Source: Paramacrobiotus metropolitanus
Lineage: Eukaryota; Tardigrada; Eutardigrada; Parachela; Macrobiotidae
Assembly (NCBI RefSeq): GCF_019649055.1
Contig: NW_026570266.1
Coordinates: 186,001 to 250,000 of the forward strand
DNA length: 64,000 nt
Direction: 5' to 3'
Shown here: positions 7,200 to 60,238 of the stretch, piece by piece
Layout: every line of letters begins with the position of its first letter
Position numbering within the stretch: the stretch's first letter is position 1
Translations under genes and position numbers: made by a program
Notes under the pieces: model-generated
What the model saw: the letters and a program-made list of their open reading frames with translations, nothing else
Databases searched by the model: none
Told to the model about the DNA's origin: nothing

Positions 7200-8088
7200 T
7201 TTTCATAACTGCGCAGTATACTGTACCAGTGTCGCGCCTGCCCTTGAAAAGGCAGCAATGCTTGTAACCGGATTTCGGGGTGAGACTGCACGCCCTTCTG
7301 CCCTGTTCTTTATGGACGTCATCGTCGGCATCGCTACGGGATCCGGACTGCTTGGCTTCGTTCCGGCCCGCTTTGCACTTCTTTGCGCGTTTAACGTTTC
7401 TTCGAACGATTGAGGGTCATGCATGGGTCATTAGGTGGGAACGGGTGCTTCCATTCTGGAGATCGTTGATAAAAGCCACGCAGAGGTTCTCATCCAGCAC
7501 TGTGGATGGGAACTGGCAGTAAGCTGTCGCGTCTTGGCGCTTTCACGAAAAGTTTTCCAGGAATTCACTTCAAGTCTGGGTTACCTTGAAGAATTTTGCA
7601 ATTTCAACTTTCCGGAAGGTGCAGGAAATGTAGCGGACACGCTTCTCCAGCAGCTGCTGCAATGGAAAATCTTTAGCCCGGAAGGCATACGGCCACCAAA
7701 CGCCTGAACGGCTTGGGACCGAGCGAGCCCGGAAACAGATTGACTTCTTGTCATCCGGGACTTCGGGCATTTCAATGTAGTTTTCGAACTTCTGGTACCA
7801 TCGAATCCGAGTGAGTTCGTCCGTGTTCCACCTTTCCAGCCGAAGGATAAGCTGGGACTTTAGCGGGCTCGAAGAAGACACGCGCTGGCCGGTCAAGGAA
7901 TTACGAGTGGTACTGGGTGCAGTACCTGGGGGAACGAAAACGCCCAGTGGAGTATTGAGGGATGGATCGGAAGTTCTAGTGACTTTACTGGTAGTAGCAG
8001 CGGAAACGGACTGGCGATTTAGTTGATTGGACGTTGAGGGAGGAGGTTTGGGCGGCATACGGTCCGAATGAGCTCGAAACATCGTCAC
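7200..8088 (-). pseudogene. Decayed retrotransposon gag
   Basis: The translation matches the intact gag at 9225-10118 block by block but changes frame several times. The segment with RLERWNTDELTRIRWYQ is in one frame (ending near 7765), LGPKPFRRLVAVC continues in another, SCTFRKVEIAKFFK is back in the first, and DENLCVAFIND and DPQSFEETLNAQ are in others. Stops lie between blocks, for example near 7692 and 7427. Gag would package element RNA; this copy cannot make a full protein. No zinc knuckle is readable downstream. A start-side linker rich in Ser, Thr and Pro precedes the conserved part. It sits inside repeat copy A and may be part of it or an old insertion. Confidence 0.75.
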
Positions 8089-8099
8089 GCCAATGTGAA

Positions 8100-8840
8100 G
8101 TAGCTGTTGTAATATGTTTTGTATGATATTACATTTTATACGAGTACTTGATCAACCGTAAGCAGCCATTATGCGTACTGACTGCTACGTACTCTGGCAC
8201 GTGGTAACAGCACATATCGCTAACCCAGTAAGACAGGAATGAACAAGGTTGTAATGAAGGAATACATGCGACCAGGAAGGTCGTACACAAACCACACTCG
8301 CCCACCCTTTTATCTCCAACCTTCGCCTGACATACCCCTGTTCAAGGTTATCAGATAATCTTATCCTTTGTGAACTTGTCCGGAACGCCCGGTAAACACA
8401 TTAAATACAGAATATTTATTGGCCGAACTCCAAGGGAATCCAGAATGAGTTCTTTCTGCTCTATATCCGGTATTTACTGCAGTTTCACGAGGTCTGGAAT
8501 CGGAACCGCAATGGCTTCCATAACATGGTATTTTGCTCAAATTTGAGCAACAACATCAATAGACTATCTTTTCCGGCAGGCGTGGACGTCGGCGACGGTA
8601 GCATCGTGGCAAACAAGTCCACCCGACTCTACAGATAACGAGGACATACACTCACAGTACACAGTGACAGAAACAGCACAAATCATTGTTCCAATCACTT
8701 CCCGCCAGTTTAACGTGTCCTCTAGCTCACATCTTTATCGACTGATGTTGTAACAATATAGATACACGTAGACAGCTGGTCACTGTTGTAATTACTAGTG
8801 TAAAGTCATGGATTACTGGGACATCACATTAGAAATGCAT
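8100..8840. other. Uncharacterised repeat-derived sequence
   Basis: No frame here has a recognisable domain. It lies between the decayed gag and the nested LTR element and could include leader or LTR sequence of the decayed gag, but I found no second copy in the window to prove it. From 8840 to 8955 it again matches copies B (21670-21790) and C (29890-29990). Confidence 0.35.
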
Positions 8841-8955
8841 GTCTTCTGGAATTTTCCTCAAATGCAAATGGTTAGTCAGCCTGCAGTTCCATAGAGCCGG
8901 GTCTACTGGTTGATCGTGAGCAGGAGCAGGATAGCAGGTTAATTGATAGGATACT

Positions 8956-9110
8956 TGTCACGTCTTTAAGTGCGTGTAATTTAATAAGACTGCACGGTAT
9001 AAGCCCGAATATAGAATGACCAGAAAATATACAGATAATTCAAATCCCTGTTGCTACGGCATAAATACAGCAACAAATACTGTACAAAGGTCATTCAGTA
9101 CGACATTACA
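8956..9110 (-). repeat. 3' LTR of the gag-only element
   Basis: This is a direct repeat of 10113-10270. Shared blocks include 'cacgtctttaag', 'aatttaataa', 'tccctgttgctacggca' and 'ggtcattcagtacgacat'. Small indels separate the two copies, so the insertion is not very recent. Confidence 0.85.
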
Positions 9111-9224
9111 CCTTCACCACCTATGCAAGAGAACAAGACATACGTACAAATAATTATTAGCAGGTAGCAAAGGAAAATATTAAGTGCATATACTTAACCT
9201 TGAACCTTAAATTTCCACTTCATA

Positions 9225-10118
9225 TTAGTACGTCATTAGTACATCGAATTCTTCTTCAGTAAATATCGTATTCGTACGCATACTAGTCTCCCAAGCCACC
9301 TCTAGGTGACCTTTCCGTCCGCAACGATTGCATCGTTTGTCGCGGTGCGGGCATTCGTCACGCTTGTGTGAACGTGAACCACAAATCCGACATTTGTAAT
9401 CGGAGGAATTCTTCTGGAATGGGCGGCGCTGGAAAACTCTGTTAACCGTATTGGAGGATTCACTGGACCGTCGCGCTTCTTTCTGGCCGGCCTCATGTCT
9501 GGACGCGAGATCCAATGTCTCCTCGAACGTCTGTAGGTCTTTCGACATCAGTTGTGCCCTTGTGGATTCATTTCGTAGTCCATTCATGAATGCAGCACAC
9601 ATGTTGTCGTCGAGTTGCGTACCGCTGAAGCTGCAGTAGGATGTACCTTCGAAGAGGTTTTCTGCAAAATCTTCTAAAGATGCGCCACTCTGCTGCTTTA
9701 TCTGAAAGAATTTCGCAATCTGGGCTTTTCGGAAAGTGTACGCAGTAAACTGCTTTTGAAGCTTGGAGACCAGCTCCGTAAGGGACAGCTCCGTGGGCTT
9801 CCGGGGACGGCACATGGCCACAATCCGTTTGATTGGCTTTGGCCCTAGAGAGTCAGTCAGGAGGTTGACTTTCTTGTTGTCTGGAACCCCGGTCATGCTG
9901 ACGTAATTATCGTACTTGAAGTACCAGGCATCCCACTTCAGTTCTTCGGGATGCCATTTCTCAAGGCGGGGGACATGTTGAGAAGGGAGATTAGCATTAG
10001 AAGCAGAGGCACTTCTTGACTTCTTGTAGTAGACATAATGTAGTAGAAATTGTAAATGCAGGAGAATTTGTACGAAGCAGGAGTGCGTGACCCTCACCGC
10101 TTCACGCCAAATTGTCAC
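9225..10118 (-). CDS. gag: Retrotransposon gag with zinc knuckles
   Basis: This is an uninterrupted frame of 297 codons. The first Met codon falls at the LTR edge, and the conserved part starts near residue 52 (EKWHPEELKWDAWYFKYDNY). The middle carries a capsid-like helical region (FRKAQIAKFFQIKQQSG, then LDDNMCAAFMNGLRNES). Near the C-terminus is a CCHC knuckle, CRICGSRSHKRDEC (C-x2-C-x4-H-x4-C). A second follows, CNRCGRKGHLEVAW, whose last cysteine position is Trp, so it cannot bind zinc normally. The protein would coat element RNA in the cytoplasm. The tail beyond the second knuckle is short and replaces the expected pol. Homology to Ty3/gypsy-type gag is inferred from the layout and knuckles. 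Confidence 0.8.
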   Translation of the reverse strand: MTIWREAVRVTHSCFVQILLHLQFLLHYVYYKKSRSASASNANLPSQHVPRLEKWHPEELKWDAWYFKYDNYVSMTGVPDNKKVNLLTDSLGPKPIKRIVAMCRPRKPTELSLTELVSKLQKQFTAYTFRKAQIAKFFQIKQQSGASLEDFAENLFEGTSYCSFSGTQLDDNMCAAFMNGLRNESTRAQLMSKDLQTFEETLDLASRHEAGQKEARRSSESSNTVNRVFQRRPFQKNSSDYKCRICGSRSHKRDECPHRDKRCNRCGRKGHLEVAWETSMRTNTIFTEEEFDVLMTY

Positions 10119-10270
10119 GTCTTTAAGTACGTGTAATTTAATAAACGTGCACGGTACAAGCCCGAATGTAGAATGACATGAAAATATACAGATAATTCAA
10201 ATAACACAAATCCCTGTTGCTACGGCAGAAATACAACAACAAATACAAAGGTCATTCAGTACGACATTAC
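10113..10270 (-). repeat. 5' LTR of the gag-only element
   Basis: This is the partner of 8956-9110. Its outer edge has a small tandem duplication (cgacattacgacatta), which blurs the exact end by a few bases. The likely primer-binding site adjoins its inner edge at about 10100-10112. Confidence 0.8.
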
Positions 10271-13812: not shown

Positions 13813-14121
13813 TATATGCCTACGTACGTCTTGGCATGTACTAGCCTAAAAGCTTTCATTAGACAGGAAGGCGGTTACTTAATTTACTGCGCACCACTTT
13901 TGTTGGCCACACGGTAATCCAACACTCCAAGTATCCGTACATTGTCCGAGATCCGTTAAGCGCAGTCGCTTCGCCATCAATTTGAGCTCAAGCCCAGGAC
14001 CAGTACTAACGAATTTGGCTTAGAACCCGAAAATTATTTTTCAATTTCTGAACTGTTATTTTTTCTTACCCATTGAATCGTTGACCTAGAAATATATCTA
14101 GAGTTCGTACTTGTCCGTTTC

Positions 14122-17032
14122 ATGGCATACACTCCTCAGTATTTGTCTATCGCCATGAATGCAACACATCGATATTTTCGGGAGCTGAATTCGGGTAAGA
14201 GCGAAGTGAACCACGGTAACACAGTACTGGTGCTGCGTGACAACGGCAATTTTTGGCTGGGATACGTTCAGGATATAAGCGGCGATCACTTCTTCGTTGA
14301 CTTTGACGCCACAACTATCAATGCCGAGTGGATTCATTCCAGCCATCTCTGGCCGCATCATTTCTTGCCACGGCCACCAATGATGAATCTAAATTTACCT
14401 GCGTGTGCTGCTTTGCGGGATGAAGTCGGGGGACCGCTGGTTTTCCGACCAGTCACTGTCAACAAATTCCTGTTCTGTATGTTCTACGGTGTTCATTTAA
14501 ATAACCCGCCCGATAATCGCATTGTCCACGTGCACCACATGACTACACAACTTCCCGCACCTGATGACGGGCAAAGTTTCTTCGGAAGGGTTAACGGGTT
14601 TCTCTACCGGAAGTATGTCATTGGATTCGACCGGGCGCAGTTGCTGCACGACGTCAGTTTTATTACCAGATTCCTGGTTGAGACGTGCCAGTTCACTTTA
14701 GGCCTCGCAAACGTCTCATGCAATGTCGGGTGTCGGTATTCGAGATCGGTTGAAGTGGACACTTTCTGCTTTCGTTGCGAAAGACATTTGCAGCGTGATC
14801 CGTTTTCGGTAAATGTTGGCTGTCGTATGTTTGTTCGAGTGGGAATCGATGCGGTCACATTTGTTTGCGCCGAGATGCACATTGACGCAGCCGGTCGTAG
14901 TATATTTTGGAAGGAAGAGTCCTTGAAAGCCGCGTGTCAAAATTACCTCGGCGAGAAACTTCGACTGCAATCGTCCAAACTGGAACTCCCTGTCCCAGTT
15001 GCTGCTGAAAACGGCGCCATGGTTCCCATGCAGCACGGTTAGTTAATCACTAGGGTAGGACGTACGGTATTTCCACTACGAGTTAGGACTGAAAATGTAC
15101 CGCTGCGAGTAGCTGGTATTCGGAATTACTGATATCCGTTCTATCACCAAAGAGGTCTTTTGTGGCAATCAAGATTACATTACACATTTTCAAGAACTGT
15201 CATTATGACAGTGTCATAAACTGTTTCCTCAATCAAATGTAATGCGTGGCTACGAATTTGATCCTTTATTTCCTGTGTCAAGCCAGACAGAATTTTACCG
15301 GTGGCTGTGGCTAAAGGAGGAAGGGCGGCATTTTTGCCGCATTATGAACGCCGCAGCTGAAACTGCCCCTACAGGAGCTTAATACTCACCAACCCGTACC
15401 CGATCATACTCGTATAAATGTAAGGGATATCAATACGTTTTACGTAGCATTTTTTTTCTTGTGAAATTAAATGATAGGCAGGAAAGCAGGATAGACAGTT
15501 CGTTCAATTTTTTTATCTGGAAGTTTGCATTAATATTCTGATGTCATGCACATTAGACTCAGTGTAAACACTCGGACGGAAAATGATTATACAGAATGTC
15601 TGTAGGGTAAGCGCTACTCTAGCCAAAATAATACGAAAGGCTTGTTAGATGTTCTTCCAACGAGAAGAGCGAATCATGAGCTGTTCATCTCGTTGGAAGG
15701 GAAACTGCTCAATTGCCGGTCTCCTGCCCCTACTAGCGGTAGCGGGTGCACCGCTGCCAGTTACTACAGGAGGTTGTTTGTATAAACCAGAAAGTACTGC
15801 GCCAATCAATTTGTGTTACAAACTTACAAACCAGAAAATACTGCGCGGGCCAATTCGACATTTCCAAAATAGTTTGACTTTGGTGATAGAACAGTCAGTA
15901 AACATACTCACCTGCTGTCTTGCTTCCCGGGTAAAAAGCTGTGTTAAAACAAATTGATTTGCAGGATTCGCAGAGTTACGCATAGGTGACCTCTCACTTG
16001 TGGTCCTTGCCGGCGTTTTGCTTAATCTCGACGTGCTAACTCAACTGCGGACAAGCCAGTAAGTGTTTTGTTAAGGACCAAAGAGAGATTTGGGTGCTCT
16101 AACCGGGTTGCGTGCAGGGTCTGCGCGTTATGGAGGCGGGTTATAAAGGAATTCGGCAGTTATCGGCATATCATCTTTGTCATACCGCCTAGCCGCGTCC
16201 AACCACCCTGGGATTGGACGGTGCCTTCTGAACTTGACCGTTTCACCGAATACAGACTCACTACGATGCTGAAACGAACCATCTCTCATGCCACCCGGGC
16301 GGTGGCGTTGGTCGTGGAAGGACCGCAGTACCGCCAATCTCCCATGGATTTTGTAATCAAAGGATCGCTTGTTCGGCGTGTTCTGGAAGAAAAGGGAGTA
16401 CGGCTTTGGATGTTCATTGGCAAGAACGGATGGGAGGACAGGGATTCAGCGACTGTTGCGCTACTGAGCCTTTCTCCAGGCATTCCGGATCGGTGGCATG
16501 AGATGTCCCAGTGGATGCACATCTGTGACAACCTCCTGCTGATCAATTATACGACATTTGACTTCACCCACAGCACACGTCTATGGCGACTGCCACCAGT
16601 CACGAAACCGTATCTGGGTGACTTTTGCAGCGGGCAGTTGCATGTCACCATTCCGTTTCTGCGCTTTCGCGCAACGGAGACAGCGGCAGAACATTACCGG
16701 CACTTTTTATCGGCGCTAAGCGACAGTTGTCCGTCGGTTAGTCCAGACCTTTCGGCAAAGATCACTGTGTTGCATATGCACTGGGTGCAGACATTGACCT
16801 ATCCCGACGAATAGACGGGGATTCGCAACTTCTTTAAATGGTGCGTTTAGGACAATTGTACAGATATATAGGCCAGTATTTGTACGACATATGGTAATCT
16901 GTTTTCAGGTGCAGCTGCATTAACCCCGCGGGCCCTGTGCAGGAGTGGGATCAGGTCGACTTGCGGCAGCTTGACCTTTCAGTGCTCAATAAGCTGGCCT
17001 TCGCCGTGCTCGACGCATGCTATAAAATCTGA
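14122..17032 (+). CDS. F-box protein gene 1 (N-terminal Tudor-like domain), four exons, internal TAG
   Basis: Exons are 14122-15037, 15965-16058, 16118-16840 and 16909-17032; all phases fit. The ATG at 14155 aligns better with the paralog at 35.9 kb. Exon 1 encodes a domain with a barrel-like start (NTVLVLRDNGNFWLGYVQD, then FFVDFDATTINAEWIHSSHL), Tudor- or Agenet-like by inference, plus a Cys/Phe-rich region. Exon 2 and the start of exon 3 form the F-box (IGDLSLVVLAGVLLNLDVL, then VCALWRRVI), which in known proteins binds SKP1 in SCF ubiquitin ligases. The rest resembles the paralog through to the C-terminus. An in-frame TAG at 16812-16814 replaces the Trp codon of the paralog (YPDE-stop against YPDRWTAIR). 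It truncates the product to 568 of 618 residues, dropping all of exon 4. Copy A ends 85 bp upstream. Confidence 0.8.
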
Positions 17033-34120: not shown

Positions 34121-35955
34121 GACGGAGGTCACAGTAGTCATAACTCGCGCTCGTGCCTACCTGGTCAATCGGTGCAAGCAGCCCGGTATTCTACCGCCGT
34201 TAACGCAATTAAATCGTAAATCATATTAAGACGGCAATTAGACGGTTGCACGTTCGACTTTATGTAATACGGTGGACAAAGGGCATCGCCACACAGTTTA
34301 TAGAACACAATCAGAAACAACTGCACATCTCATTAATTTTTTCACCAGGCATATGTCGCCCAGTTGGTAAAGCTAAGTTTACTGTTAACTTTCATGTATT
34401 GGTCGCATTAGTGCGCAGAATGGTGTTCACACGCGTGCTGTTGAGAAAGTGACAAGTGTCACGCTGTCTGCTTGATGTAATGAGCAACCACCCTCGGTGG
34501 CTGGCACTGGCAGCCCGTATAGATTTCTTGCATTTCCTATGGATATGGAAATGATCAGTTTTTTGCTACCCTTTTCCCATGTTTCTGTATTTTTCCCTTT
34601 TGGGCGATACTCTTCTTTTGTGGGAGACCCTTGCTCTCCCACCTCCAGATTTATCTGTTATGTCGAGGGGGTGTTAGACCTTCCTCGTGACACAAGCATT
34701 TCAACGTTTGGTCTACCAATCTGCTCACTGCTGCCCTTATTCGAAGATCGGGCTTTTGAAGTTTGGAACATTATAAGCGGAACGCTGATTCCACGGACGG
34801 AATTTGTCCGATTGCCGTGGCATTTAGTATCTGGGAGACTGGAACCCAATGCGAACCTCTGCCTGGAATTCTCCCATACAAAACGAACCTGGTAGATGGA
34901 GGAATCGTAGGTCATCATCACCCCAGTACCCACTGAAACCTATTGCACGCGACTGATGTCAACCTGGGCCAAACAAACACGGTAAACTTTGACATTCTGT
35001 GTCACCTTTTTTTGGTTTACTGAAGTCGCGAGTTAGGTTGTGAAATATTTTTGTACAGTGAATTATATGTTATCCGAACACGACTCATTGTACGAAAATG
35101 TCAACTTTATTTCGCGGAGGTTTGCTGCGTGAAGCAGGCTGTTCGAAGGACTTTCCCTTCCTTGAACGGCTCCATGTCAGATGTCTTAAGTATCTGGCCT
35201 AGACGTAAATCATTGGTGTCAAGTTGTCAGCAAAATATTCACAAGGCGCTGACGACTCTAAACAAAAAACAGAACAAAAAATCGGTTGAATTTCTTTGTG
35301 ACAGAAATGCAACCAATAGTTCTGGTTTGGCTCTTCCCTGCTCTAATAACTGAGTTACTCGGGTCCTACGGTCTGTCAGCGGAAACAGTCTCCTCCTTTG
35401 GTCCTTCCGTTGAATCACTCCACTCATATAACATCCTAATTATTACGCAATACCGTAGCAGCTAAGGCAGCACTGAACAAGCCTTTCAAATGACTCTAAT
35501 GCTAGATCCAACTGTGATCCAGATACGGAGACCTAAACGGAATAGATCCCGTGGAAGTGAGCAATGCGATCTGGATTGCGAACTACGCGAAATCACGAAA
35601 CGTCGCACCGCTAATTGCTGACTTTTAATAAATTGAAAGTTCCGACAACAGAAAATCAATAATGATCGGCGCAGCTCGATCGTAAAATCGTAGAGCCAAT
35701 TCTACACTGTGCATCACTGTGCAGCACGTGCTATGCCGCGCCCACTGACACAACTCAAGCCAATCAGAAGCGAGACACAACACAGACACGTAATCCAGTG
35801 GCGAGTAGCGCCACGAGCGTGAACGCTAGTGAACCCCCGCTCACATGACAATTTTTGACTGTGCGATATTATACGGATAAGTTATGAGTAACAGAGTGAA
35901 GCAATAAAATAATTTACATAATATTACAGTGATAATCTGCGCATCAAAATTAAGC
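34121..35955. other. Intergenic, with an unassigned frame and the promoter side of F-box gene 2
   Basis: A 132-codon plus frame at 34497-34895 and overlapping minus frames at 34427-34933 compete for the same DNA. I recognise none of them. The segment from 35.4 kb has no long frame and leads into F-box gene 2. Confidence 0.35.
35760..35764 (+). promoter_or_regulatory. CCAAT box upstream of F-box gene 2
   Basis: The sequence AGCCAATCAG lies about 195 bp before the ATG at 35956, in the usual range for a CCAAT element. There is no strong TATA box; a weak 'gatattatacgg' occurs at about 35866. Confidence 0.3.
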
Positions 35956-38555
35956 ATGCACCCATTCCACTATCGGACGCTGCAAACGGGTGCACGCGAA
36001 GTGAACTACGGGAACACAGTGTTAGTGAGACGGGACAGCGGCCAATGGTGGCTGGGATATGTTCAGGATACTGACGGCGACAACTTCTTCGTCGATTTCG
36101 ACGCCAGCACAGTCAACGGCCAGTGGATCCACTGCAGCCATCTCTGGCCACACCGTTTTTTACCTGATACAGTGACAAATTCCTGCGGCGTCTCTATACA
36201 CGTAGCACTGCGTGATGAGGACTACGGGCCCATGGTTTCTCGGTCGTGCACCCTCATCGACAAACTGCATGATTTGTTTTACGCTGTGCGCATCAACGAT
36301 ACAAACTACAGCGGTTCGGCAGTCTTGCGCATCGCCCATAAATGGCAGCTTATCGGAAACCTACCAGCAGTCCGCGGCCAACCCAGCTTCCTCGGTCGAG
36401 CTAGCGGATTCGTGTACCGGAAACATGTCATCGTTTTCCCCCAAGCGCAGATGCTGGGTAGTATGGCTACCTTGAGAGCTCTGCCCAGCTGTCTGCTGAA
36501 CACGTGCCAGTTAGGGCTGGGGAGTGGTGATGTGTGGTGTGATGCCAGTTGTCAGTTCACGCTGTCAGTGGACTTCGATAAAGCTACTTTTCGGTGTGCT
36601 ACCGCCGACCATAACTGGCGGGGCGCGCCGTACCAGTTCAAACTGGACTGCCGGATGTTTGTACGCGTGGAAATGGACACTGTCACATTCGTGTGCGCCG
36701 AACTGCACGGTGACGCGGACGGTCGCAGTGTTTTGGAATGAGGGTGCTCTGGAAGAGGCCTGCCACAACTGTCTCCTGCAGCAACCATTACGGAATGCAG
36801 GCAGTATTAGCGCTGCTGACAGTGACGCGGTCAACTCAAAGGAAGGTCAGTACAGAAGCGCCGCTGCGCGATGGTGGGCACGTACTTAAGAGAAGCCCAA
36901 ATATGGAGAGTTATGGTTATCGTTTCGGGTTAAAGCATGTGTTTTCAGTTAACAAGGCGCTGCCCCCGTGGCGACGATTGTGAAGTCCTTAGAAAAATCA
37001 GTTTAATTAGGGATTTGCGGGGCGGCAGAACAATTTGACGATTTCAGCGGAATGTATTTTTCTAGATATTACGGAGAGCACGCGGATCACCGATCTTCCC
37101 CATCCCATCCTGGCGTTGATTCTGCAAAATATGGACTTCTGCACGCAGTTGCAGTCGAGCCGGTAAGTCGAGTTATATGGTTGAACCTCTCTAATTTATG
37201 TTTATCGATTTCTGACTGTTTATCGATTTTGGTTATCGATTATCGTAAAAGCCGATCACATGGGCGTCAGTCAGAAATTGGAAAAACCATTTAATTATTG
37301 GCGTCCCGTGTGCTTTAATAAATAGAAGTATACGTAACTGGATACGCCAAGTACCAATGAACTTTATGTTTTTGACTATCAGGGTGTGCGCTCTCTGGGA
37401 ACTACTGTTGCGCAAAGATGTCTCTAACCGGCGCAACGTTATTGTGGAAATTGGGCAAACTCCCTTAGAACGTTATCCAGAAAAAGAAGATCCCAGTGTC
37501 GAATACCATAGCAGCGCTTACGCGTCTGACCCAAGAGTATGTGCACTGGATGCGCATTACACCGGCATAGATCTGTATGTGCATGTCATCATGCACACGC
37601 TGCCCGTGTGTTGCGTTCCCGTACACATACCATGTGGTAAAACTTGCGACTGTCGCTACAGTATCAGAGATTCGTATGCCGGCTGATTCCGACGCTAGAC
37701 CGTGTCCTCACGCAGCACACGGAGACGTTGACGCTGATTGAGGAGGGCCCCGGGTATGAGCGATGTTGGTGGAAATGCGCATGGAGATTGATGACCATGG
37801 TACGAGTACTGCAAGCCAAAGGCATTCGCGTGCCGCTGCTGATCGTTAAGAACGCTTGTGATCCCAAGGAAAAAGGAGAACACGGCTTAACGCTTCTGGA
37901 ACTGAAGCCAATGAGCAGCAATAACGAGCAGGATTACGTGTGCAGCATGCTGTCGCAATTGATGACCGTGTGCCAAGAGCTGCTGTTAATCAACCACACT
38001 GTGCGAATTCCTACGGGCCAACATTCACCCATAATGCGGCTGTTTGGGAATGACCCGCTGCAATGGCCGGATGGTATTGATGGTGGACAATGGTTTCACG
38101 TTATACGTGACGATAGATACGGCCCGAATGGCCCACCTGCTCTGTTGGACATTATTATTCCGCTGCTGCGCATCCCTTCTACGGATACTGCCGCCGAACA
38201 GCGGCAACGCTTCCTCTCTGTCCTGAACGACAACTGCCCGGCCGTTACTCCACGAGTACGCAAAAAGGTCAAAGCTGTGCATGCCCGCTGGGTGCGGAAG
38301 TGGACATATCCCGACCGCTGGACGGCCATCCGCGTCTTTCTCAACTTGTGAGTGTAGAAGTGAATTACTACATTGGGGGGTTTGCCTTCTGGTATGATAC
38401 ACAAATGCAATACCGGTGGTGCTTTCTTCAGGTTCAGTGGCTTCCGCTCGGATGACAGCCCGCGATCGTGGGATGCAGTGGATCTGCGGAAAATAGACAT
38501 TTCCATGCTTAGTAAACTGGCCCTGACGATACTGGATGGATACTACAAATGCTGA
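35956..38555 (+). pseudogene. F-box protein gene 2, paralog of gene 1, with 2-bp frameshift
   Basis: Exons are 35956-36845, 37048-37162, 37383-37536, 37662-38347 and 38432-38555. Exon 1 carries the same N-terminal domain as gene 1 (NTVLVRRDSGQWWLGYVQD, FFVDFDASTVNGQWIH). The F-box reads ITDLPHPILALILQNMDFC, then VCALWELLL. The final exon is 124 bp, exactly as in gene 1. Gene 2 has an extra phase-0 intron (37537-37661) inside the exon that is single in gene 1. Near 36731 two bases are missing relative to gene 1 (GRSV-LE-stop against GRSIFWKEE), so the frame ends after about 260 residues, before the F-box; the correct frame resumes one step over. Downstream exons look intact. It is either a young pseudogene, a truncated N-terminal protein, or an assembly error. 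Confidence 0.75.
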
Positions 38556-47250: not shown

Positions 47251-50200
47251 CTACATAGTAATGCGCTTATGCAGTTTCTGCATCTTTGCGAACTTCACGG
47301 CGCATATCGCTTTATGCCACTTCCAGTTCGTTTTTTGGCATTCTTTGCCGCAGTACACTGCCGTCAAACAGACACAGGTATAAGGGGAATGAGGCTTTCC
47401 ACATTCTGTGCATACGCCTTCAGCATGGTGATCATGTGCCGGCATATTAATGTTGAAGTTCACCCGTGCGACCTCTGCCGGAAAAACTATTCGAAGCACC
47501 ATCTCGGCCTGCAGTTTTGGTGGGAAATCGTCAGGTATCCCATCAAAAAACTTTATACGGTTCGTATCCGCCTCGCAAGCCTTTTTGTAGTATGATAGGA
47601 CCTTTGTCACGTCGGCCTGCGGACCCATAGCGTACAATGATGCCACATAAAACTGTGCAGCAGGAACTTTGCGCTCGTCTTTAGGATTTCCATCGAAATA
47701 CCGCTGGTATGCAGCAATAACCTCGTTTATCTCTTTCTGCATGGCCTCCTGGTTGGCGTGTTTCGCATAAATGCTACCTAAGTGACCCTCGAAGACTTTG
47801 CGTAACCCGGTGGCGACCGTGTATAGCCAGTTGGGGCGGGGTTCTAACTCGTAAGCACGGTGCACGCTGGCCAACAGCTCTTTGTCCATGCACCCGAATC
47901 CATAATAACAAGCGAGCAGGTGATGAAAATCGGCTTCCTTCGGGTGCAAACGAATGCAACGATCCATGAATGCAATGTTACCTAAAAAGTCACAAAGCAA
48001 TTATTGTTGTTAGCAGAAAATTGTCCTCACGCAAGAATAGGTTTTGTTAGTGGCGGACACGATGGAAAAGCAGCGTTGTCGAAGCGTGTTTTCACCGATA
48101 CCTGCAATGTCGTTGCCAAGATGGCATGCTTTGACGAAGAGAGCATCGGCGGTTTCTAAGTTATTTTCTTGAATGAAGGCTAGCATATCGGAAAAATAGA
48201 AATCGTTGACGTCGTAAAATTTAGTGGATTCTCGGATCAGGTGGAAAGCCGTTGTGATGTCCCCATATTGCCATGCTTCGTACCCTTCCTCGACCATTGC
48301 AAGCGCTTTAACAACATTTTTGGCTGTTATCGAGCCTTTCGCTGCCGGTTCCACTAAATGTGCTTGATCATGCAAGGCGGAGTTTCTCGGTACCGGATTC
48401 CGGTGTTCTGACAACGTATCAAAATGTCTAGCCACATCAATTTCAGCAGCTGAAGCACCCTTCCACTGAAAATACCGATGCACTCTGTGAGACCATTTCA
48501 TGCTCTTGCTTCCCGTCGGTTCCGATAACTGAGAACGCTCAAACTCGCAAACGGCTTCGGAAATCTGGAGCAACCGTTCGAACCCCGCCCTAGTTTGTTG
48601 GTCTTCCGGTTCAGCTGAGTGGTTAATGGCACGCTGGAACCATTCTCTGGCCGCAGTCACATCGCGCTGGCAGCCGGACCCTTGTGCTAGTAGTCTTGCG
48701 AGAGACAGCTGAGATGTCAGGTCTCCTCGTTCACTGGCTTGCACGCAGTAAGGAAAAGCTTCTGTATACCTGTGATCTTCTAGTAAGGCTTGGGACAGCG
48801 CAATCTGTGAGTCTGCATGACCCAGTTCAGCGGCTCTTGTCCACAACGCAACGGCAATTCCGAAGTGTTGCACATGATAATAGTAGCCAGCCTGAAATAA
48901 CAACAAATGTGATTCGCACTTGAATTACGCATTTTGTACAATAAAGGGTAGTTTCGGTGGGACTTTGATCGAAGCGGGGGCAACGAAATGAATGGCGCCG
49001 ACGCCCGAATTGAATGACAGGCAAAAATGTTAGTTCAAAGGTCACAGCCTAAACGTAAACTGCATTCTGGTGCCTTCCTCGCTGCTACTCGTTTGCTCAT
49101 TGATCCATTTTCTTAAGACTTTTGATTTTGAATGTAAACCGAAAACAATCAATCGAATTCAGTTAAGCACCACATTGAATTGAACGCAGTACACTCAATC
49201 AGCATAAAACAGCTTCGGGAGGCCTAAGAACAGAGAAAAAACTGATCTAAGTTTGCTGTTGGTGGAGTTGTCCCTGAACGGAGGCCGCGCTCCTGGATTT
49301 CTCTGTTGATCCTTAAGGAGCCTTGACAAAAACAATTCTGCCCGCCGAGAGTGGCCTTATGGAAAAGTTTACCCGGGTTTCTGCTGGATAAAATAGGGTA
49401 AGCCTAATTCGGTCATGTAGTCGAAATTCAACGGTTGACTTTTTATTTTTATCCAGTTCTTAGGTTTACGAAACGATTTGTCTTACCAGAAAGTGCAGAA
49501 TGTGCACATTTTCCTTGGTTGTCAGCTCGCCAAGCAGGACAGCCAGGTCTTCCTGCTGTTCCGCAGTCGCATCTCCGCTGTTTGACAGGCGCCACAGGCG
49601 TGCAATTGCATGCTGCGATCCTTGCTCCGCCGCTTTTCTGTAGTATTCAAAGGCGCTGTGTTTGTCAACCGGCCCACCTCGGCCGTCCTCCAGCATTGAC
49701 GCATAGTTCAACTGGGCTTCGGCGATTCCTTGTTTGGCCGCGCGCTCGAACCAGTACCGCGCTTCCGGAAGATTTTGCGCCACACCCTCTCCGTTAAGCA
49801 GGGCAGCTCCGGCATTGTTTTGTCCTTCAGCGTGGCCCCATTTCGCCGCTTTTAAAAAATGCTGGACAGATTTTCTTGGATTTTTGTCAAAACCTATTCC
49901 GTCGCGATAGCACACCCCTAACGCGTGCTCCGCGTGTGACACACCTGCGCAAAAACAAATTATTGATCATTGCGGCAATGTAATCCATCACGGCGTGTTT
50001 TATTACACTGAATCTCTTTGTACTACTACGGGACTTCCCTACAACTACCTTACAACACGGGAAATATGTCGGTTTGTAGGTACATTCTCTGTATAATTAT
50101 TTGTAGCAAGGCTTTGAGCACAAAAGCTATCACTGCAGCGTAATCTGCAGGTTAAAGATACTGGTTTATGATTTTTTCACGTTAGAGACACTGGTTTTGG

Positions 50201-53200
50201 TTATTTCAGTGAACGACCTTGTCATATTTTCTTAGCGGTTTACTAGGAATTCCATTACCTAGTACAGCGGAAATCTGGCCCCCATACTTGATAAATGGTT
50301 TCTGGGCGCTCGCGAACCGATAATACTTCAACATCAGGTCATGATTGACGTGTGTGGCCTCACCCTGACCATACATATGTGCCAAATTATACTGCCCTTC
50401 GGCGCTCCCCAGATCGGCAGCTTCCTTGAACAGTTTAAATGCACGGTTAAGGTTTCTCTTTTGACCCATCGCTCCGGTCAACGCAATATGTGCCATTCCG
50501 ACTACAGTGTGTTGTTTTTGGTGCTCTTGGAATCCCGCGTCATCCAGTATACGAACATCAGTGTCCTCCGGTTGAGTAACATCATTCCACCTCTTGCCAC
50601 CAGTTTCCAGGCTGATTTTTGGGTCTGGTCGAGGATGTGAGGTGTTGAATTTTTGAGCAATCTGACTTTGAAGATCACGCTGTCTTTTAAGCAAAGTGCT
50701 TTCGTTGGCATCTATTTTCAAACCTCTCTGACAAACGGACAATGCTTCCTTTAACAGATCCAGTTCAAGCAGAGCTTTCGATAGAATGCAGTAGTATTTT
50801 ACGTTGTGTTCGGCAAGTGCAATGGCCTGCTCGGCGTCCTTGCGAGCTGACCCGAAATTTCCAAGTTGCAGCTCACACAGCGCACGGTTGGAGTACAAGA
50901 CAGCTTCTCCTGGATTTGATTCCAGCGCTTTTGTGTATTCGACTTTGGCATCGGTAAAGCGATCGTCTTTGAAATAAGCGTTACCCTTCTCTTTTAACTG
51001 CTTCCATCGCGGAATTTCGACGTCCGGTAGGCTCGATCTGGTACTTGATGGGGTAGGAACTGGGTCTTCTTTCCAACTAGAAAAACAAATTTCGCATTAA
51101 CTCGTATCCGAGCAGCAGCGCTACTACTGTAGAACTACAATTCCCATTGGCAAGAGCTGTTGCAACTGGAGCAGACTAGAAATAGAATTTAATATGCCCC
51201 CGTTACCGGTTCTGTTGCTGTTGCCGGTTGTCCCAGCGAAGGAAAGCACAGGGAGCATACATATGCGTAGAACTTAACAGCGGCATAAACAGTGCTCACT
51301 CATCGGATGCTTACTGCGGTATCCAATATTCAGTAAGCAGACGGTGATCGGGTGAGAACTAATTTTATCATCCGTTAAATACATTGTGAAAGTTACCTGA
51401 GCAAGGGCACTGCACATGACGAGCAGCTAGCAAAGATTCCGCTGGCTTGGACACTGGTTCCGTGCATTTTGACGGTGGCCCACGGTGCCTCGCATTTGAT
51501 GTCCAGCATCTCTGTCTCTGGAATTACCAGCCGCTCTACTGCCATTCCACCGTGAACGTAAATCTGGTCCTTAACTGCACAAGCGCTATGTCCGAATCTC
51601 GGCTGCCGAAACGGATGCATTTCTTCCCAATTGGGCCTCTGCAAGTTCAGGTGTAAACAAGACGCTGTTGCAGCCCACGGAGAAGTTCTGTCTTCTGGGA
51701 TGAAGCTTTTAGTTATTCCACCCAACAAATAAATATTTTCATTGATCATAACCATGGCAAAATGTTTACGCTGGTCTGGGACATCTGGCAAGGTCTGCCA
51801 AATGCCGGTTGCCGTATTAAAGCATTCCACCCACATCGAGCCTGTGGCCTCCTGCGTCCCTATGTAAACTATTTTGTTTCCGCATTTCGTCGAGCTCACT
51901 ATGCTTCCATGCCTACCAAGCAAACATTTTCAGATCGTCAGCAAGTGCAACAAAGGAGCTCTCGCAAGCGGGCTGATCCCGATTACGGTAAGATATCAAA
52001 ATCGAAAAACCGAAAGATTTCACCTGTTTTGCCATTGATTGCCACTTTCCAAGATGACTGTAGTGTCTTCATAAATGTTGGTTGCTTTAAAAATCATAGT
52101 GCCATCTTGGTAGTCCCAGAAATATATCGTGCCGTTTACCGCTACCGGTTCAACGACCATTGATATGGTGGTTGGAAAGCCGAACGAGCGCATGCTACAT
52201 TTCCGAACATTCCAAAAGATCGCGCGCCAGTATTCGTCTGGAGTTTTAAAAATGAGGGCAATTTCTATTTCATTAAAGGCCACGATCCGATGCTCGAACT
52301 TCCAATCGAAACCCTTTTGCTCAAGAAGCCCAGGAGGAAGCTGAAGACTCTGTATTGTGTTGTTGCTAGGGTCAAATAGCTCAAACAATGGACTGTCGCT
52401 GTCTCTGTTATGTGGTTTATGCCAGCATGCAATCTTACGCGCTGGAAGTACGTCCTGCGCTTCGTGCAGTTTATCGAGAACTTTACGCGCAGAAAGGCGG
52501 CTGTCCGTATTCCGATTGAGACACTGCTGTATGCAGAGTCCCAAATGGGGTGGAATTGAGCCATTGACAAACGGAGTATAACCACTGATGATTAACTGGA
52601 TAAATCGCTGCTCCGCGACATCATTTCCTCCGCTAACAAAGGTTTCCTTGTTTTGCAACAGTTTCTCTTCGCATAGCGCATAAACCTGTGCTAACTCCAA
52701 GATAATGCAACCTAAGCTCCACACGTCGGTCATTCTGCCTGGCAGTTCTGCTCCGACCATCTCAGCAAACTTTTTCAACATTTCCGGCGACATGTAGCGC
52801 AAGGTGCCGCGAGGATGGGTGATGTCGGCGGATACCGTGACGCTTTTTTGCATGTGCACCATATCATCCATATCTCCTATAAGCAGTCTTCGGGGACCGT
52901 CTGGCATCTGCTTGACAAGGATATTTCCCGGTTTCATGTCACCGTGTATCATCTTCATGTCATGCAGATGATCCAGTCCCTGGGCAATATCAATGGCGTA
53001 ACGCATGGTCTGCTGGTAATCGAGGTAGCATTTGTGTTGACGCACCATTCTGAAGAGCGATGTCAGATCACCTTAAAAAGCAACAAACGGTTATGGTATT
53101 ATTAATACCTTTATTTGGCAATAGCCGGACCACAGAACAAATTAATCGTTAAATTAATCGTTGAGAAGAATATGGGTACAGAGTATATCACCAATGCTTT

Positions 53201-54533
53201 TTGGCAGGCGCCTACGATGGTCACTGTCTTAAGACTTTCCAATTTGATAAAAATATGTTTCAGTCCTTCAGAGATTCTTCTTTCTGCGCATTAATTTTTT
53301 TAACAGTTCCGGGTGGCTGAACAAAATGTCGGTCTTCCGTTTTAGTTTGTATCTCGCGGATCGGTTGCCACACCGCTAACTAATTGGGCTCGTTCGAAAG
53401 AGAATTTTATTGACTTCCGAAATCAACAAAATATTTTGATAAAATTGAGCTGCGCCTGTTTGCAACGCTGCCAGTTAAAATCGTGTGAACATGTGTCCCA
53501 GGTTGCAAAACATATTATCTCGTCGCATTTCTTTTACGAATGGGCGTTTTGAACATTTTTAACTGTTTTGTACAGAGGAATGCCTCTAATGGTAAAGCAG
53601 TTGTGCGCGCGCTGCCTGCGCTGGAGGAGTTATGCAGTATGTGCACTTTGTGAATTTCCCAAAAAATGCCGGTTACTAAATCTTATTTTAATGAGCGATT
53701 TTCGTTAAAATTTGCGTGTAAGATCGCAAGTTTGCAACAAGAAATGCCGGTTCTTCCAAATGTAGCTATTAGCTAACGCATTGCCCTTCCAGAAACAAGA
53801 TTGAAACAGACTCGTTTTGACGCTGTGGTCAGAGATTTGCTTTCAAAAACCCTACTCGCGGATTTCACGAGACTTGCTCGTGCGGAGTTTCGGTTATTCC
53901 ATGCACTGGTCAAACGACAAACGGTCAAACATGGTTGATTAGAATGTTGCTACTCCTTATAGTAAAAAAACAAGAAATAACCCCGCTGCCAAATACATCA
54001 ATGTGAGGTAAATTATCTACTTAGTTGAAGAATAGCAATTTTTAATTTTGGAATGGGAAATTTCAAATTTTCGCTTCCAGGACATCTCCAATTCTACCCA
54101 ATTTTTCAAAATAATTCTTAAAAAAGTTTAATCTTAGGATAATCTTTGTTTGATTTTAAGTTTCTGCACTAACGCACTTGCCGCATTTTAACTTGCACTT
54201 ACCGGCACAATAATCCATTACCAGTTCCACCTTTGCTCCTGTCTCAGCGCTTTTGATTGTCACTTTATGGTACGATATCAGATTGTCGTGCCTAACTGTT
54301 ACAAGCGTTTTCAAACGCTGGTAGAACTTATTCCACTTTTCTGCATCATCGACAGCGATGTGCACGACTTTCACAGCCACGTGACCACTCCCGGTAAAAT
54401 CGCCAGGAAAAGTCACCGTGCCTTTGTATATCATTCCAAAAGCACCGCTTGCGATAAAATCATCATTGTCGTAGCGATACTCGCAGCTGCTGCCCAGTTT
54501 TTCAGCTACGCATTCAGAGCGTTTCTCGACCAT
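47251..54533 (-). CDS. Kinase-Kelch-TPR-Sel1-MYND fusion protein, seven exons
   Basis: Exons on the minus strand are 54203-54533, 52024-53071, 51397-51912, 50259-51076, 49487-49944, 48102-48891 and 47251-47981. All have GT-AG borders and matching phase; 4692 nt give 1563 residues. Kinase domain is about 25-290: loop ASGAFG (first Gly replaced), Lys55 (VAVK), HGDMKPGN (Asp155, Asn160), and DMD in place of DFG at 177-179, then SPE and DVWSLG. All four key catalytic residues are present, but it is a non-RD kinase. Kelch repeats run about 330-630 (NIYLLGGI, QIYVHGGM). Three TPRs lie at about 650-765 (KEKGNAYFKDD). Sel1 repeats run about 800-1320 (HALGVCYRDGIG, AEAQLNYASMLEDGRGG). A MYND finger ends it at about 1515-1552 (CTECGK…CVC…YCGKEC…H…C). 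It is probably a cytoplasmic or nuclear signalling scaffold. It could be two genes if the 51.08-51.4 kb intron is wrong, but phase supports one. Confidence 0.8.
53072..54202 (-). other. First intron of the kinase-MYND gene, 1.1 kb
   Basis: This is the longest intron of the gene. It separates the kinase N-lobe exon from the C-lobe exon between MDYCAG and GDLTSLF. The interior is AT-rich; I see no coding sequence or repeat in it. Confidence 0.6.
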
Positions 54534-55567: not shown

Positions 55568-58500
55568 TTATTTAGGGGGCACCGTAAACTCTGCATTATC
55601 GGGTATGGAAAAGACGGTATTATGATCGAGATGCTTCGCACTATGATTTCTCCTAACATGATACACAGCATGCTGTCCGGCCTCGGCCGGATTATGGCTG
55701 CTCAGCAGCGGAAACGACGCATTATCCAGATGCACCCGCACAATGATGTCCGGCGTCATCGGGCGTATGGTCACGCTGGTTGCTATCACATCCGGCCTGT
55801 CAATAATCACCTGCGCAAACCCGCTCATATTGATGGCGCCGCCTCCCTCGCGGACACTGGGCGACGGCACCGCCGACGGGATGACCGTCTCCGGCTCCAT
55901 CATCATCGGCCCCACCGGCGACTGGTGGCCGCCCGGAGCGCTGAGACCCGCGGGGATTCCCTGCCCCCCGGCACCACCGGCGGCTCCTCCGCTGCCTCCC
56001 GCGGGCGGAGTCTCATGGGCGCGTCCCGCTTCCACCTCCGCTTCCGGGTCGATGGGCATCCGGGGACGGTTGCGGCCGCCGACGCCCAGTTGGATGTGTC
56101 CATGGTGCATACCCCCACCTCCGGGCGGGTAACCGCCACCCTGGCTGGCGACCATGCTGTTGGGATAGCCCGGGACGTTGGGGCTCTGCCCGGACGAGGG
56201 ATAGTACGACGGGGGCATCTGGGCGGGGTATGAGGGGCTCCCTTCGATCTGAGGTTCCGCCGACATCCAGGATCTCCCGTTTCCTTCACTACTGACGATC
56301 GCCGGGTTCTGGCGGCTGTGATGGTAACTGTTGGGATAGACCGCCTGGCTCGGGTACTGATTGGGATCGGTGGCTTGGTAGGGATACGACCCCTGGGTGT
56401 TGTAATGCGGGACGCTGTTACCGCTCCCGGAGGTGTGCATACTCCGCTGCGTCACGTGGTGCGGCATCTGGCCGTAGGTCCCGCCTCCCAACTGCGTTAC
56501 CAAGTACGGATTGTATAGACTCGGGTTGCTCCCGGCGGCCCCGGTCATGACCGGCTGGGTGACCACCGCCTGCCGGGTCATGGCGTAGGGGTTGTAGTTG
56601 GTCTGCACTTGGGTGTTGGGGTACCCTTGGAAGAGCGGCGTGAAGTCGGGGAGCCCGGATATGGCCTGGCGTTTGCCGCTGGGGAGGCTGTAGATGGCGT
56701 TGGTGGAGACGGAGTTGATCTGGGGATAGCGGAGGGCCACCGGCTCGCCCTGGCTGGAGAGGACCCCGGCGTAGCCGACGTTGTTGCGGGCGGCGTTGGC
56801 GGCGGCGAAGCCGTTGAGGACCTGGTTGGTGGTGGAGCCGAAGCTCTGCGTTTCCATGCAGATCACCTGGTCGGGGCTGGTGCAGGAGCGCAGCTGGTCG
56901 GAGAAGAGCATGCCGGCCGGACACGGGAACTCGAATTTCATTCCGTCTTGACTGTAACAAAATGAAAAGCAAATGAATTTATTAAGCCATCATATGTAAA
57001 AACTTCTCACGATTCCGGCAAATAAGATTTGCATAATAATTTCAGTACATAATTTTCGTATAAATAAGAATTTGTAACTCATACGAAAAAGGGTCTGTAT
57101 TTAAATATCCATTCCCTTGAACAGCAATTAAGACATAACGGGGTACAGACACATGCCTGCAAAAATACTAAGTTCGAATGTTCGATACAAAGCACAATAA
57201 AGAATTTAGTATTACTGTATTTAAATTCTAATACTACTGCACACTACTGCATTACTACGAGTACTGTAATTAAATTCAGGATTAAAATATGACAAATTAA
57301 TCCACATTTAGGCCCGTAAACAAGTTGTTGATAAGCACCTGTTTACAGTCATAATTACCAAAATAAATAAAAAAGCTTTATGTACATATGTGCCGGTTTT
57401 TTGCGATGCAGAAGTTTCCCCAACGATGCCAGTGCAGCAAATATTGCTAGGCTAGACATGGAATTTCATAAATACCTGCAGAAATAATAATTCCGACAAT
57501 TTCTGGCCACATCCGCCATCAGCACCCCCGTCTTGGCCCCATCACACGCGCCCGTCAGATCCGGTGTCCCGTTGGCCATGCCCATATGCGGATCCGGATT
57601 GGCGGCCGATCGTAGAAACGCCTGCTGCGCTTTATTCGCCGAATTGGCCGACAGTATCGCTTGCGCGAACTGGTTGAGATTGATGTTCCCCGACAGCGCA
57701 TTCCCGGCTTGCAACGACGCCGGTTGCGCGGCATTCCCTGTCAATCCGTTGAGGCCGTTGGAGGCGCCCGGCATCATCGGGCCGCTGTTGCTGGCGGCCC
57801 CCACCGGGGGCATGATGGCGGCGGCATTGGTCTGCGGCACGGCGTTTGGCGGGGCCGCGTTGGCCACCTGGATCGGGCCGGCGCTGCCGATGGGTCCGGC
57901 CACGCCGTTGGGGACGGGTACGGCGCCCATGCCGCCAGGGGGGCCGTAGGGGGAGGCGTTCATGCCGAAGGACCCGTGCGGGTGACCATGGTAGCCGATG
58001 CCCCCGGCTGGCATGTCCAACGCGTCCTGCATAATCAGCGCCGTTTTGTTACGAAAAACTTTGTCTGTTTTGTTCGAACTTTAATTTCGCTTTAAAATTT
58101 GAATTTAAATTTCAGTTTTTTTATATTTCCTTATGTTATTCTTATACGTGCTTCAAATATCTCCTAATTCTTTTCGAAATTTATGGATCTCGTTTGGTGA
58201 ACGAATTATAATTTTTCCTTTAAAGCTGTACGTTAATCAGCATATAATAAGTTGTGGAATTACTTGATTGGTATATACCACTGATTCCACTGATATAATT
58301 CCACTGATTTTACTTTTTTGTCTATAACTCTGCTTAATTGTGGTTTTCTTTGCAATGCAACTGTTAGTTAGAAATCAGAAGGGAAAAAATTCGGACAACT
58401 TTATTACTATTTAACGGACACGGTGTGCGGCACATAATATTAAGAAATCACTGACCAATCTAAAGTCAGTATTTTCAACATTAAACAATATTTTGGAAGA

Positions 58501-60238
58501 CAAGACATGGGTTTGCAGCTTACCAGCGGCTCTGGAAAATCACGGCACTCCACAGCCACTACAACAAGATAACAGAGGTGAGGAAAAAAGGATAATTTAA
58601 TACCGATTAAAGAATATGGACAGCTACAATTAAGGCACATGTGCACAAGTTCCTCTTGTTAATACATTCATCCGTTTTTATTAATACATCCGTAAGACTC
58701 CATATAAATCAGGAACGGTATGGTGATTAATCACAGCTCACTTACAGGCCGCCGTGCATGTCTGCAACTCTTGGTCGAACAACTGTCCATTGGGACACGT
58801 AAAGGGCACTGGCGGCGATCCGTAATTACACCAATAATACCGGCTACACATCCATGGATCCTGGTACAACCGCGGCAGTCGCCCAACACAGGAGAACTCC
58901 TGCTGCATTCCCATTCCCGGTGGTCCCATGAAGGGCGGTCCTCCGGGGGGCCCGGGCGCCAGCATGACACCGGCAGGCGGGGCCGGCATCCCGCCCATGG
59001 CGGGTCCTTGGATGCCGCCGGCGCTGGGAGGCAGCATGTTGCCGGGAGCCGGTATTTGCCGTTTTACCTGCTAAGCCGACCGGTTAATATGCTGTTGGTT
59101 GGCCACTGAGCTGCGGCAGCCGGAAAACCGGATGTTTACTTGTTGGTAAAGCGCCAACGCGATTAAGGATGTAGTACAATAGGGCTTATACAATTGTAAA
59201 CTTCTCAACGAGATGAGGGCGGGATAAACAGCTCTAACCAGCTTTTTATTAAGCCGCTAAAGTTTCCAAATTATTTCTGTTTAACTGGGAAAGATTTATT
59301 ATGCGTGACCTTTGCAAAGTTTAAAAAGGATTGCAATCGAAAATTAATAAGTAAAATTTTTCTAATTTTGTTACAGCATTCTTACTCAATTAATCTCTTC
59401 GTGCAGTTTCTTGACTTTGTTTCTCGAATATTTCTAAGAGTTTCCTAGTTTTGCTTTTTGAGCATTTCATACAGTTTCTAATAAATTCGTAATAGTAAAA
59501 TTGTGAAATTGTTTTTGTAAAGAGCTAAAATGTTAAAGAACTGCATATAACCACAAGAATACAGTTTGCTAAATTCGAAAATCTTACTAGAAGAAGTTGG
59601 CGATATTGCTAAAGTTTATAATTAAATGGCTGCATTAAAGTTTGGACGGAAAGTTGTGAACTGATAGTCCGCAGTCGCGCGATATCACATTACTTTCAAG
59701 GTCGTCTCGTATTGCGCACGCCGATGGACATCAATCCGCTCGCAGTGCGCTGGTCTAAATCGGCGGAAGGACGACTGATATCGATAGCGCGTTCTCGACA
59801 ATACAATAATTATAATTCATAACGTACCTTTACATGTAATGCATTGGCGTCATGTGTCGAAGGTTTCCTTAAGCGTCTCCACTGTGCGTGCGCATCGGAA
59901 GTTGTCTGACTTAGACCTACAAAAAATAAAAAATAATAATATGTAACGGCTATGTATTGTATGTAGTTAAGTGAAGTTGACCTTTATCAGCAAAGAGCTT
60001 TACAATTCTAAAAGGCGATTGACTTACCGAATCGTTATTTAATCGAAACTGTAGTTTAGCTTCTTAAATCTTTGAAGGCAAGTTACAAGTTACATTTTTT
60101 CAAAAGAAAAAAAGAATTCTTTTCTAAAAAAAAGAATCATCATAAAATAAAGACGATAGTTATAAAGACGATAGTTCTCGGGTACTCACTAAGGACTGTG
60201 ACAAGGACAACAAGAATGAAGGAGAGATCGATGAGCAT
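55568..60238 (-). CDS. Chitin-binding type-2 matrix protein, six exons
   Basis: Exons on the minus strand are 60190-60238, 59828-59916, 58746-59067, 58524-58558 (35-bp microexon), 57476-58026 and 55568-56951. Phases fit throughout and give 809 residues. Exon 1 encodes a signal peptide (MLIDLSFILVVLVTVL). The first chitin-binding domain (peritrophin-A type, six cysteines) runs from FSCVGRLP through CSRYYWC and FTCPNGQLFD to QTC, with its last cysteine in the microexon (AVEC). The second starts ACDGAKTG and crosses an intron (CRNYYFC then SQDGMKFEFPCPAGMLF). Linkers are Pro/Gly/Ala-rich, and the long C-terminal part is rich in Gly, Pro, Tyr, Ser and Gln with low complexity. Such proteins bind chitin in cuticle, gut lining or eggshell. 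The last coding exons are markedly GC-rich against AT-rich introns. Confidence 0.88.

Follow-up and report, generated by a model that had tools for sequence, protein, structure and literature searches.

We have found that seven exons on the minus strand of the window, by which we mean the whole 64,000-nucleotide stretch of Paramacrobiotus metropolitanus DNA that was analysed (contig NW_026570266.1, positions 186,001 to 250,000), run from position 54533 to position 47251 and join in one frame of 1,563 residues whose sole stop codon lies at its end. The best reading of this locus, to which we give a probability of about 0.72, is that it is one gene, formed by the real fusion of a kinase-Kelch gene with a TPR-Sel1-MYND gene. 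We favour fusion because the splice signals of intron 3, where the two halves meet, are good and unlikely to have arisen by chance, and because exon 4 offers no in-frame ATG before the TPRs. The seven-exon structure is present in the sequence as the original prediction described it; that all seven exons make up one protein is less secure than the exon model itself. We infer that a transcript joining both halves is made, and joining at intron 3 is favoured, not proven. If this transcript is real, then it is a clean case of two unrelated multi-domain families joined through an apparent ancestral stop codon, and both parent families persist elsewhere in this genome, where they can serve as built-in controls.

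Seven exons and five kinds of domain

Exon 1 (54203 to 54533) carries the start codon and the N-lobe of the kinase, including the glycine loop and the VAVK lysine, and exon 2 (52024 to 53071) carries the kinase C-lobe, with its HGD, DMD and SPE motifs, together with the initial part of a presumed propeller. Exon 3 (51397 to 51912) encodes the Kelch repeats, past which the frame stops in the 31 paralogs that we read. The TPRs and the first Sel1 repeats are encoded by exon 4 (50259 to 51076), whose first in-frame ATG (50496 to 50494, M826) lies beyond the TPRs; Sel1 repeats are also found in exon 5 (49487 to 49944), an additional repeat-like region that is conserved in paralogs occupies exon 6 (48102 to 48891), and exon 7 (47251 to 47981) contains the C-terminal region, a MYND finger (47302 to 47412) and the stop. 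The exons, all of them on the minus strand, are 331, 1048, 516, 818, 458, 790 and 731 bases long, all six introns are GT-AG, and phase is kept throughout. The original prediction had described seven exons, six in-phase junctions and a length divisible by three, and its coordinates and phases are correct (the lengths sum to 4692, in a single frame). We note that exon 3 is symmetric, its 516 bases being flanked by phase-2 introns (2-2), so that the frame would survive its skipping.

The proposed modules were all recovered and follow one another as kinase, Kelch, TPR, Sel1 and MYND; every one of them is matched by one or more Pfam models over the curated cut-off. Pkinase scores 115.5 bits against a cut-off of 31.7 (residues 24-310). 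Kelch_6 (36.2 bits, best stretch 466-508), Kelch_1 (35.0 bits at 564-584) and Kelch_4 (30.1 bits) all exceed their curated cut-offs, and a long Kelch model reaches 43.3 bits at 467-623, below its own cut-off of 50. TPR_2 (35.0 bits, two stretches), Sel1 (129.2 bits, five stretches) and zf-MYND (28.5 bits, residues 1511-1547) likewise lie over their curated cut-offs. Pfam recognises Kelch repeats at about 466-623 and gives no recognition at 340-465; matches in the PDB mostly cover the later part of this region, the nearest being a designed propeller, KLHL7 and KLHL12. For the TPR and Sel1 parts the nearest PDB entries by sequence are bacterial Sel1 proteins, SPAG1, STIP1/HOP, SEL1L and CHIP, but the overall architecture of these bacterial proteins, of the TPR co-chaperones (STIP1/HOP, CHIP and SPAG1) and of SEL1L is unlike that of the window gene.

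Comparison with paralogs in the same genome provides a second line of evidence for the exon model. We collected 44 candidate paralog introns, discarded 13 for low alignment scores (many of them near intron 2) and retained 31; these had been chosen by best fit to the spliced protein of the window, a selection that did not impose phase but does bias the comparison towards agreement. Introns 1, 2, 4, 5 and 6 are matched in paralogs by both place and phase, intron 2 to within four residues. Specifically, in residues of the window protein, 16 of the retained introns lie at 110-111 in phase 1 (intron 1, residue 111), four at 456-460 in phase 2 (intron 2, about residue 460), two at 905 in phase 1 (intron 4), three at 1058 in phase 0 (intron 5) and four at 1321 in phase 1 (intron 6). 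The other two sit elsewhere, at residues 118 and 449, and were left in the splice matrices described below. Four kinase-Kelch loci (L011, L012, L031 and L033) align unbroken through residue 111 and so show no gap for intron 1. Since five introns have counterparts at the same place and in the same phase, the seven-exon model is not a product of chance. Intron 3 has no counterpart among the 31 paralog introns used. It is the only intron of which this is true, in keeping with the original prediction, which had singled out the Kelch-to-TPR junction as the weak point.

Two families in the same genome

A search of the genome (169.8 Mb in 533 contigs) with the window protein separates that protein into two halves with different relatives; the copy counts from this search are lower bounds. 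For the first half, scoring 116 out of 526 candidates gave at least 116 kinase matches with E no higher than 1e-8, counting the window itself, and scoring 150 out of 230 gave at least 138 Kelch matches with E no higher than 1e-4. In 76 of these 116 kinase matches, Kelch follows on the same strand no more than 4 kb downstream. The 115 further scored kinase matches, which are of one divergent type, point to a large expansion of kinase-Kelch genes with unusual catalytic motifs. We read 31 kinase-Kelch paralogs from 30 loci (L005-L034, with two in L011). The kinase-Kelch genes share with the window gene the kinase motifs, the Kelch repeats and the positions and phases of introns 1 and 2, but the 31 that were read end after the Kelch repeats, whereas the window gene continues if intron 3 is spliced. 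Their stops fall 16-79 residues beyond the equivalent of window residue 609 (at most 47 in 30 of the 31), positions that are plain frame readings, ahead of some of which an unrecognised donor may lie.

When the window frame is read through into intron 3 it stops 23 residues past residue 609, within the paralog range of 16-79, and its end (...CAVPLLR) aligns with paralog ends such as ...TATPVDR and ...FAFTLDR; the tails are broadly similar in an alignment that used 22 of the 31 paralog tails and omitted nine. This resemblance of stop position and tail to the ends of kinase-Kelch paralogs counts against fusion. An alternative that we regard as unlikely is that two neighbouring genes lie here, separated by 320 bases. 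The first would be a kinase-Kelch gene that ends at 51393, and the second a TPR-Sel1-MYND gene that lacks the head and has a short first exon of its own, inside intron 3 or close to it. The comparable stop positions of all 31 kinase-Kelch paralogs count in favour of two separate genes.

The second half was located by the genome search, among the matches listed, at five places: the window, three sites on contig C36 (C36a, C36b and C36c) and one on contig C9; two more weak matches span the TPRs only. The four other copies have TPRs, Sel1 repeats and introns 4-6 in common with the window gene, the introns in both place and phase, and exons 4-7 of the window are 36-48% identical to these paralogs. 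What differs is the beginning. Each of the four copies opens with an ATG, and its first 140 or so residues bear an R-N-x3-H motif, where the window copy has kinase and Kelch sequence. This head shares an exon with the TPRs in the three C36 copies and lies in another frame just upstream in the C9 copy. Its resemblance to HEPN_Swt1 falls below the Pfam cut-off in every case (E 5.5e-4 for C9, 8.3e-4 for C36c, 0.015 for C36b and, in the genome search, 0.0156 for C36a), and we therefore call it HEPN-like. The window copy lacks this head: the family query aligns to it only from query residue 141, and the genome search, which also missed the C36b copy, found no HEPN_Swt1 match on the window's contig (C46). 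Nor does the window copy have an in-frame ATG ahead of its TPRs, the first being M826, though the TPRs themselves score well. A MYND match is present in three of the four other copies and absent from C36c. Visual inspection shows that, in the window's MYND finger, cysteine ligands three and four are spaced C-x-C, versus C-x2-C in C36a, C36b and C9. MYND matches elsewhere in the genome are grouped on contigs C13, C16, C86, C101, C129 and C215 and probably represent another expanded family.

The state of these copies bears on whether the second half is translated at all. It is conceivable, albeit very improbable, that the second half is a decaying, untranslated fragment lying downstream of a working kinase-Kelch gene. 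The missing HEPN-like head would fit such decay, as would the condition of three of the four paralogs, which are interrupted within the TPR exon or next to it: in C36a and C36c a stop lies inside this exon and in C9 the frame breaks before it, while C36b is clean there. In addition, C36c, the copy that has no MYND match, changes frame in its last exon. Loss, assembly error and polymorphism are all candidate explanations for the breaks in these three copies (L001 and L003 on C36, L004 on C9). Decay would, however, be expected to leave stops, and about 930 codons of the window's second half are free of them; the 36-48% identity extends over four exons, introns are shared and the MYND match is over its cut-off.

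None of the kinase or Kelch matches listed is as close as 15 kb to any of the other four second-half copies, an arrangement that also accords with two separate genes in the window, and no second locus among the matches listed unites both families. Since the two halves come from families that are otherwise separate in this genome, their combination is a single case in the loci that we saw and not itself a family. The fusion that we favour could have come about if a kinase-Kelch gene (exons 1-3) sat just upstream of a TPR-Sel1-MYND copy that had neither a HEPN-like head nor a start before its TPRs, and if the exons of these two adjacent genes were then joined into one. The accessible text of one study presents the joining of exons of adjacent genes as probably the main route by which animals gain domains (PMC2926785). 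The multi-exon terminal gain in the window gene fits that route, which is described there as a general mechanism; that text does not name the window locus. HEPN domains combined with TPRs, of the DZIP3 type, have already been described in animal proteins (PMC3710099). Kinase, Kelch, Sel1 and MYND are all absent from the DZIP3 entry in that source, and the window gene for its part is without HEPN. Our search of the open-access literature, covering titles and the openings of abstracts among the matches listed, did not find the five-module architecture. The mechanism is a known one. The five-module combination appears to be new, and it occurs once in the loci of this genome that we saw.

Splice signals at the Kelch-TPR join

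Intron 3 (51077 to 51396, minus strand), the 320 bases that join Kelch to TPR, begins at a donor, CAG/GTAACT (the slash marks the exon-intron border), that overlaps an in-frame TAA (51393 to 51395). If the intron is unspliced, this TAA ends a kinase-Kelch protein of 632 residues. Because the donor contains what would be the normal kinase-Kelch stop, two genes or two isoforms could also account for the locus. To score the splice sites we used matrices built from the 31 paralog introns, with none from the window. The intron 3 donor scores 7.4 bits and the acceptor 9.7 bits, which is ordinary for true sites (the quartiles for the paralog introns are 6.6, 8.4 and 9.8 bits for donors and 8.5, 9.7 and 11.4 bits for acceptors). 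Against a background taken from both strands of the window, which includes true sites, donors of this strength occur at 0.95 per kb and acceptors at 0.23 per kb. A donor this strong would turn up in the 72-base tail with a chance of 0.066, and an acceptor this strong in the 87-base head with a chance of 0.02; with a factor of 1/3 for phase, the joint chance is about 4.5e-4, a figure to be taken as a guide, since it is post hoc in that the zones were chosen after the junction had been seen. A donor of equal strength is found in one of the 31 paralog tails. At the other end of the intron, 51076 is the only acceptor of at least 9 bits between 51460 and 50991.

Since exon 4 has no in-frame ATG ahead of its TPRs and 51076 is the sole strong acceptor in that interval, a separate second gene would need to place both a first exon and a promoter in about 320 bases. 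A candidate for such an exon can be found by eye at 51207 to 51262 on the minus strand; it has an ATG and 18 codons, is in phase with exon 4 and ends in the donor CCG/GTAACG. The availability of this small exon is in favour of two genes, as is the presence of the in-frame stop at the intron 3 donor itself, and the accessible part of one report describes a small number of genes that had been wrongly joined to a neighbour when tardigrade genes were annotated (PMC5531438). Nevertheless, the donor of the candidate exon scores 4.0 bits and so falls below the tenth percentile (4.4), although introns 4 and 6, which are supported by paralogs, score 3.2 and 3.0. Two genes would also require a promoter, a 5' end, an exon and an intron all inside 320 bases, and would leave both the agreement in phase and the strength of the donor at 51396 as coincidences.

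Under the fusion that we prefer, the donor overlapping the kinase-Kelch stop would be spliced to the acceptor at 51076, just before the TPRs, to give the 1,563-residue protein, and retention of intron 3 would give an ordinary 632-residue kinase-Kelch protein from the same locus. Intron 3 may on this basis act as a splice-or-stop switch, in which keeping it yields the kinase-Kelch protein of 632 residues and removing it yields a kinase-Kelch-TPR-Sel1-MYND scaffold of 1,563 residues; we regard such a switch as a tentative possibility and tend to doubt it. If it is true, the fusion has been caught while its ancestral product is still encoded.

Three other approaches to the join were uninformative. 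Intron 3 contains no AATAAA and does contain ATTAAA, but a poly(A) signal is a poor test here, AATAAA being found within 300 bases of the stop in seven of the 31 paralogs and absent in 24 (one paralog was read for 255 bases only). A promoter scan of 51000-51500 gave three sites versus 0.6 expected, using a sigma-70 model that is uninformative for this organism. As regards repeat-mediated fusion, the junction DNA matched itself alone in a search of the genome that skips common words and from which rarity cannot be inferred.

A divergent kinase domain and its possible partners

The original prediction, whose interpretation stands in part, also suggested that the protein may be a lineage-specific signalling scaffold that phosphorylates partners gathered by its repeats. 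The β3 lysine and the catalytic and metal-binding aspartates are present, but the αC glutamate, HRD and DFG are missing, which makes activity doubtful. In the window kinase the motifs read VAVK, HGD and DMD, and the αC column, assigned by alignment with TAO2, holds R. The kinase-Kelch paralogs show a similar pattern: the β3 lysine is retained in 24 of the 25 that cover it, the catalytic aspartate in all 31 read, the metal-binding aspartate in 30 and SPE in 29. The αC column is R, K or S in each of the 26 paralogs that cover it, and in two of these the preceding residue is E. None of the 31 has HRD, its position being occupied by HGD in 29 and HAD in two, and the DFG position, which reads DLD in 26, is DFG in none. 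Judged by these motifs, the window's kinase domain may have an unusual activity or may instead serve as a binding module.

The likeliest role for the whole protein, as we infer it, is that of a scaffold keeping clients near the kinase-like domain. Going by what such domains typically do, partners would be held by the presumed Kelch propeller together with the TPR/Sel1 solenoid, and the MYND finger would bind either a nucleic acid or a peptide. The divergent kinase domain would modify, or merely sense, the partners so held.

Lastly, we note several features elsewhere in the window. Rfam scans and tRNA scans with the bacterial code found nothing in it. On the minus strand at 55571 to 59070, one frame matches the chitin-binding peritrophin-A domain (CBM_14) over the cut-off and another lies just under it; a third frame there is matchless. 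By eye, two diverged copies of one pair of frames can be seen about 22 kb apart on the plus strand (14077 to 16814 and 35908 to 38351), and Gag-like frames with a CCHC knuckle on the minus strand at 7570 to 10196 are probably the remains of a retroelement.
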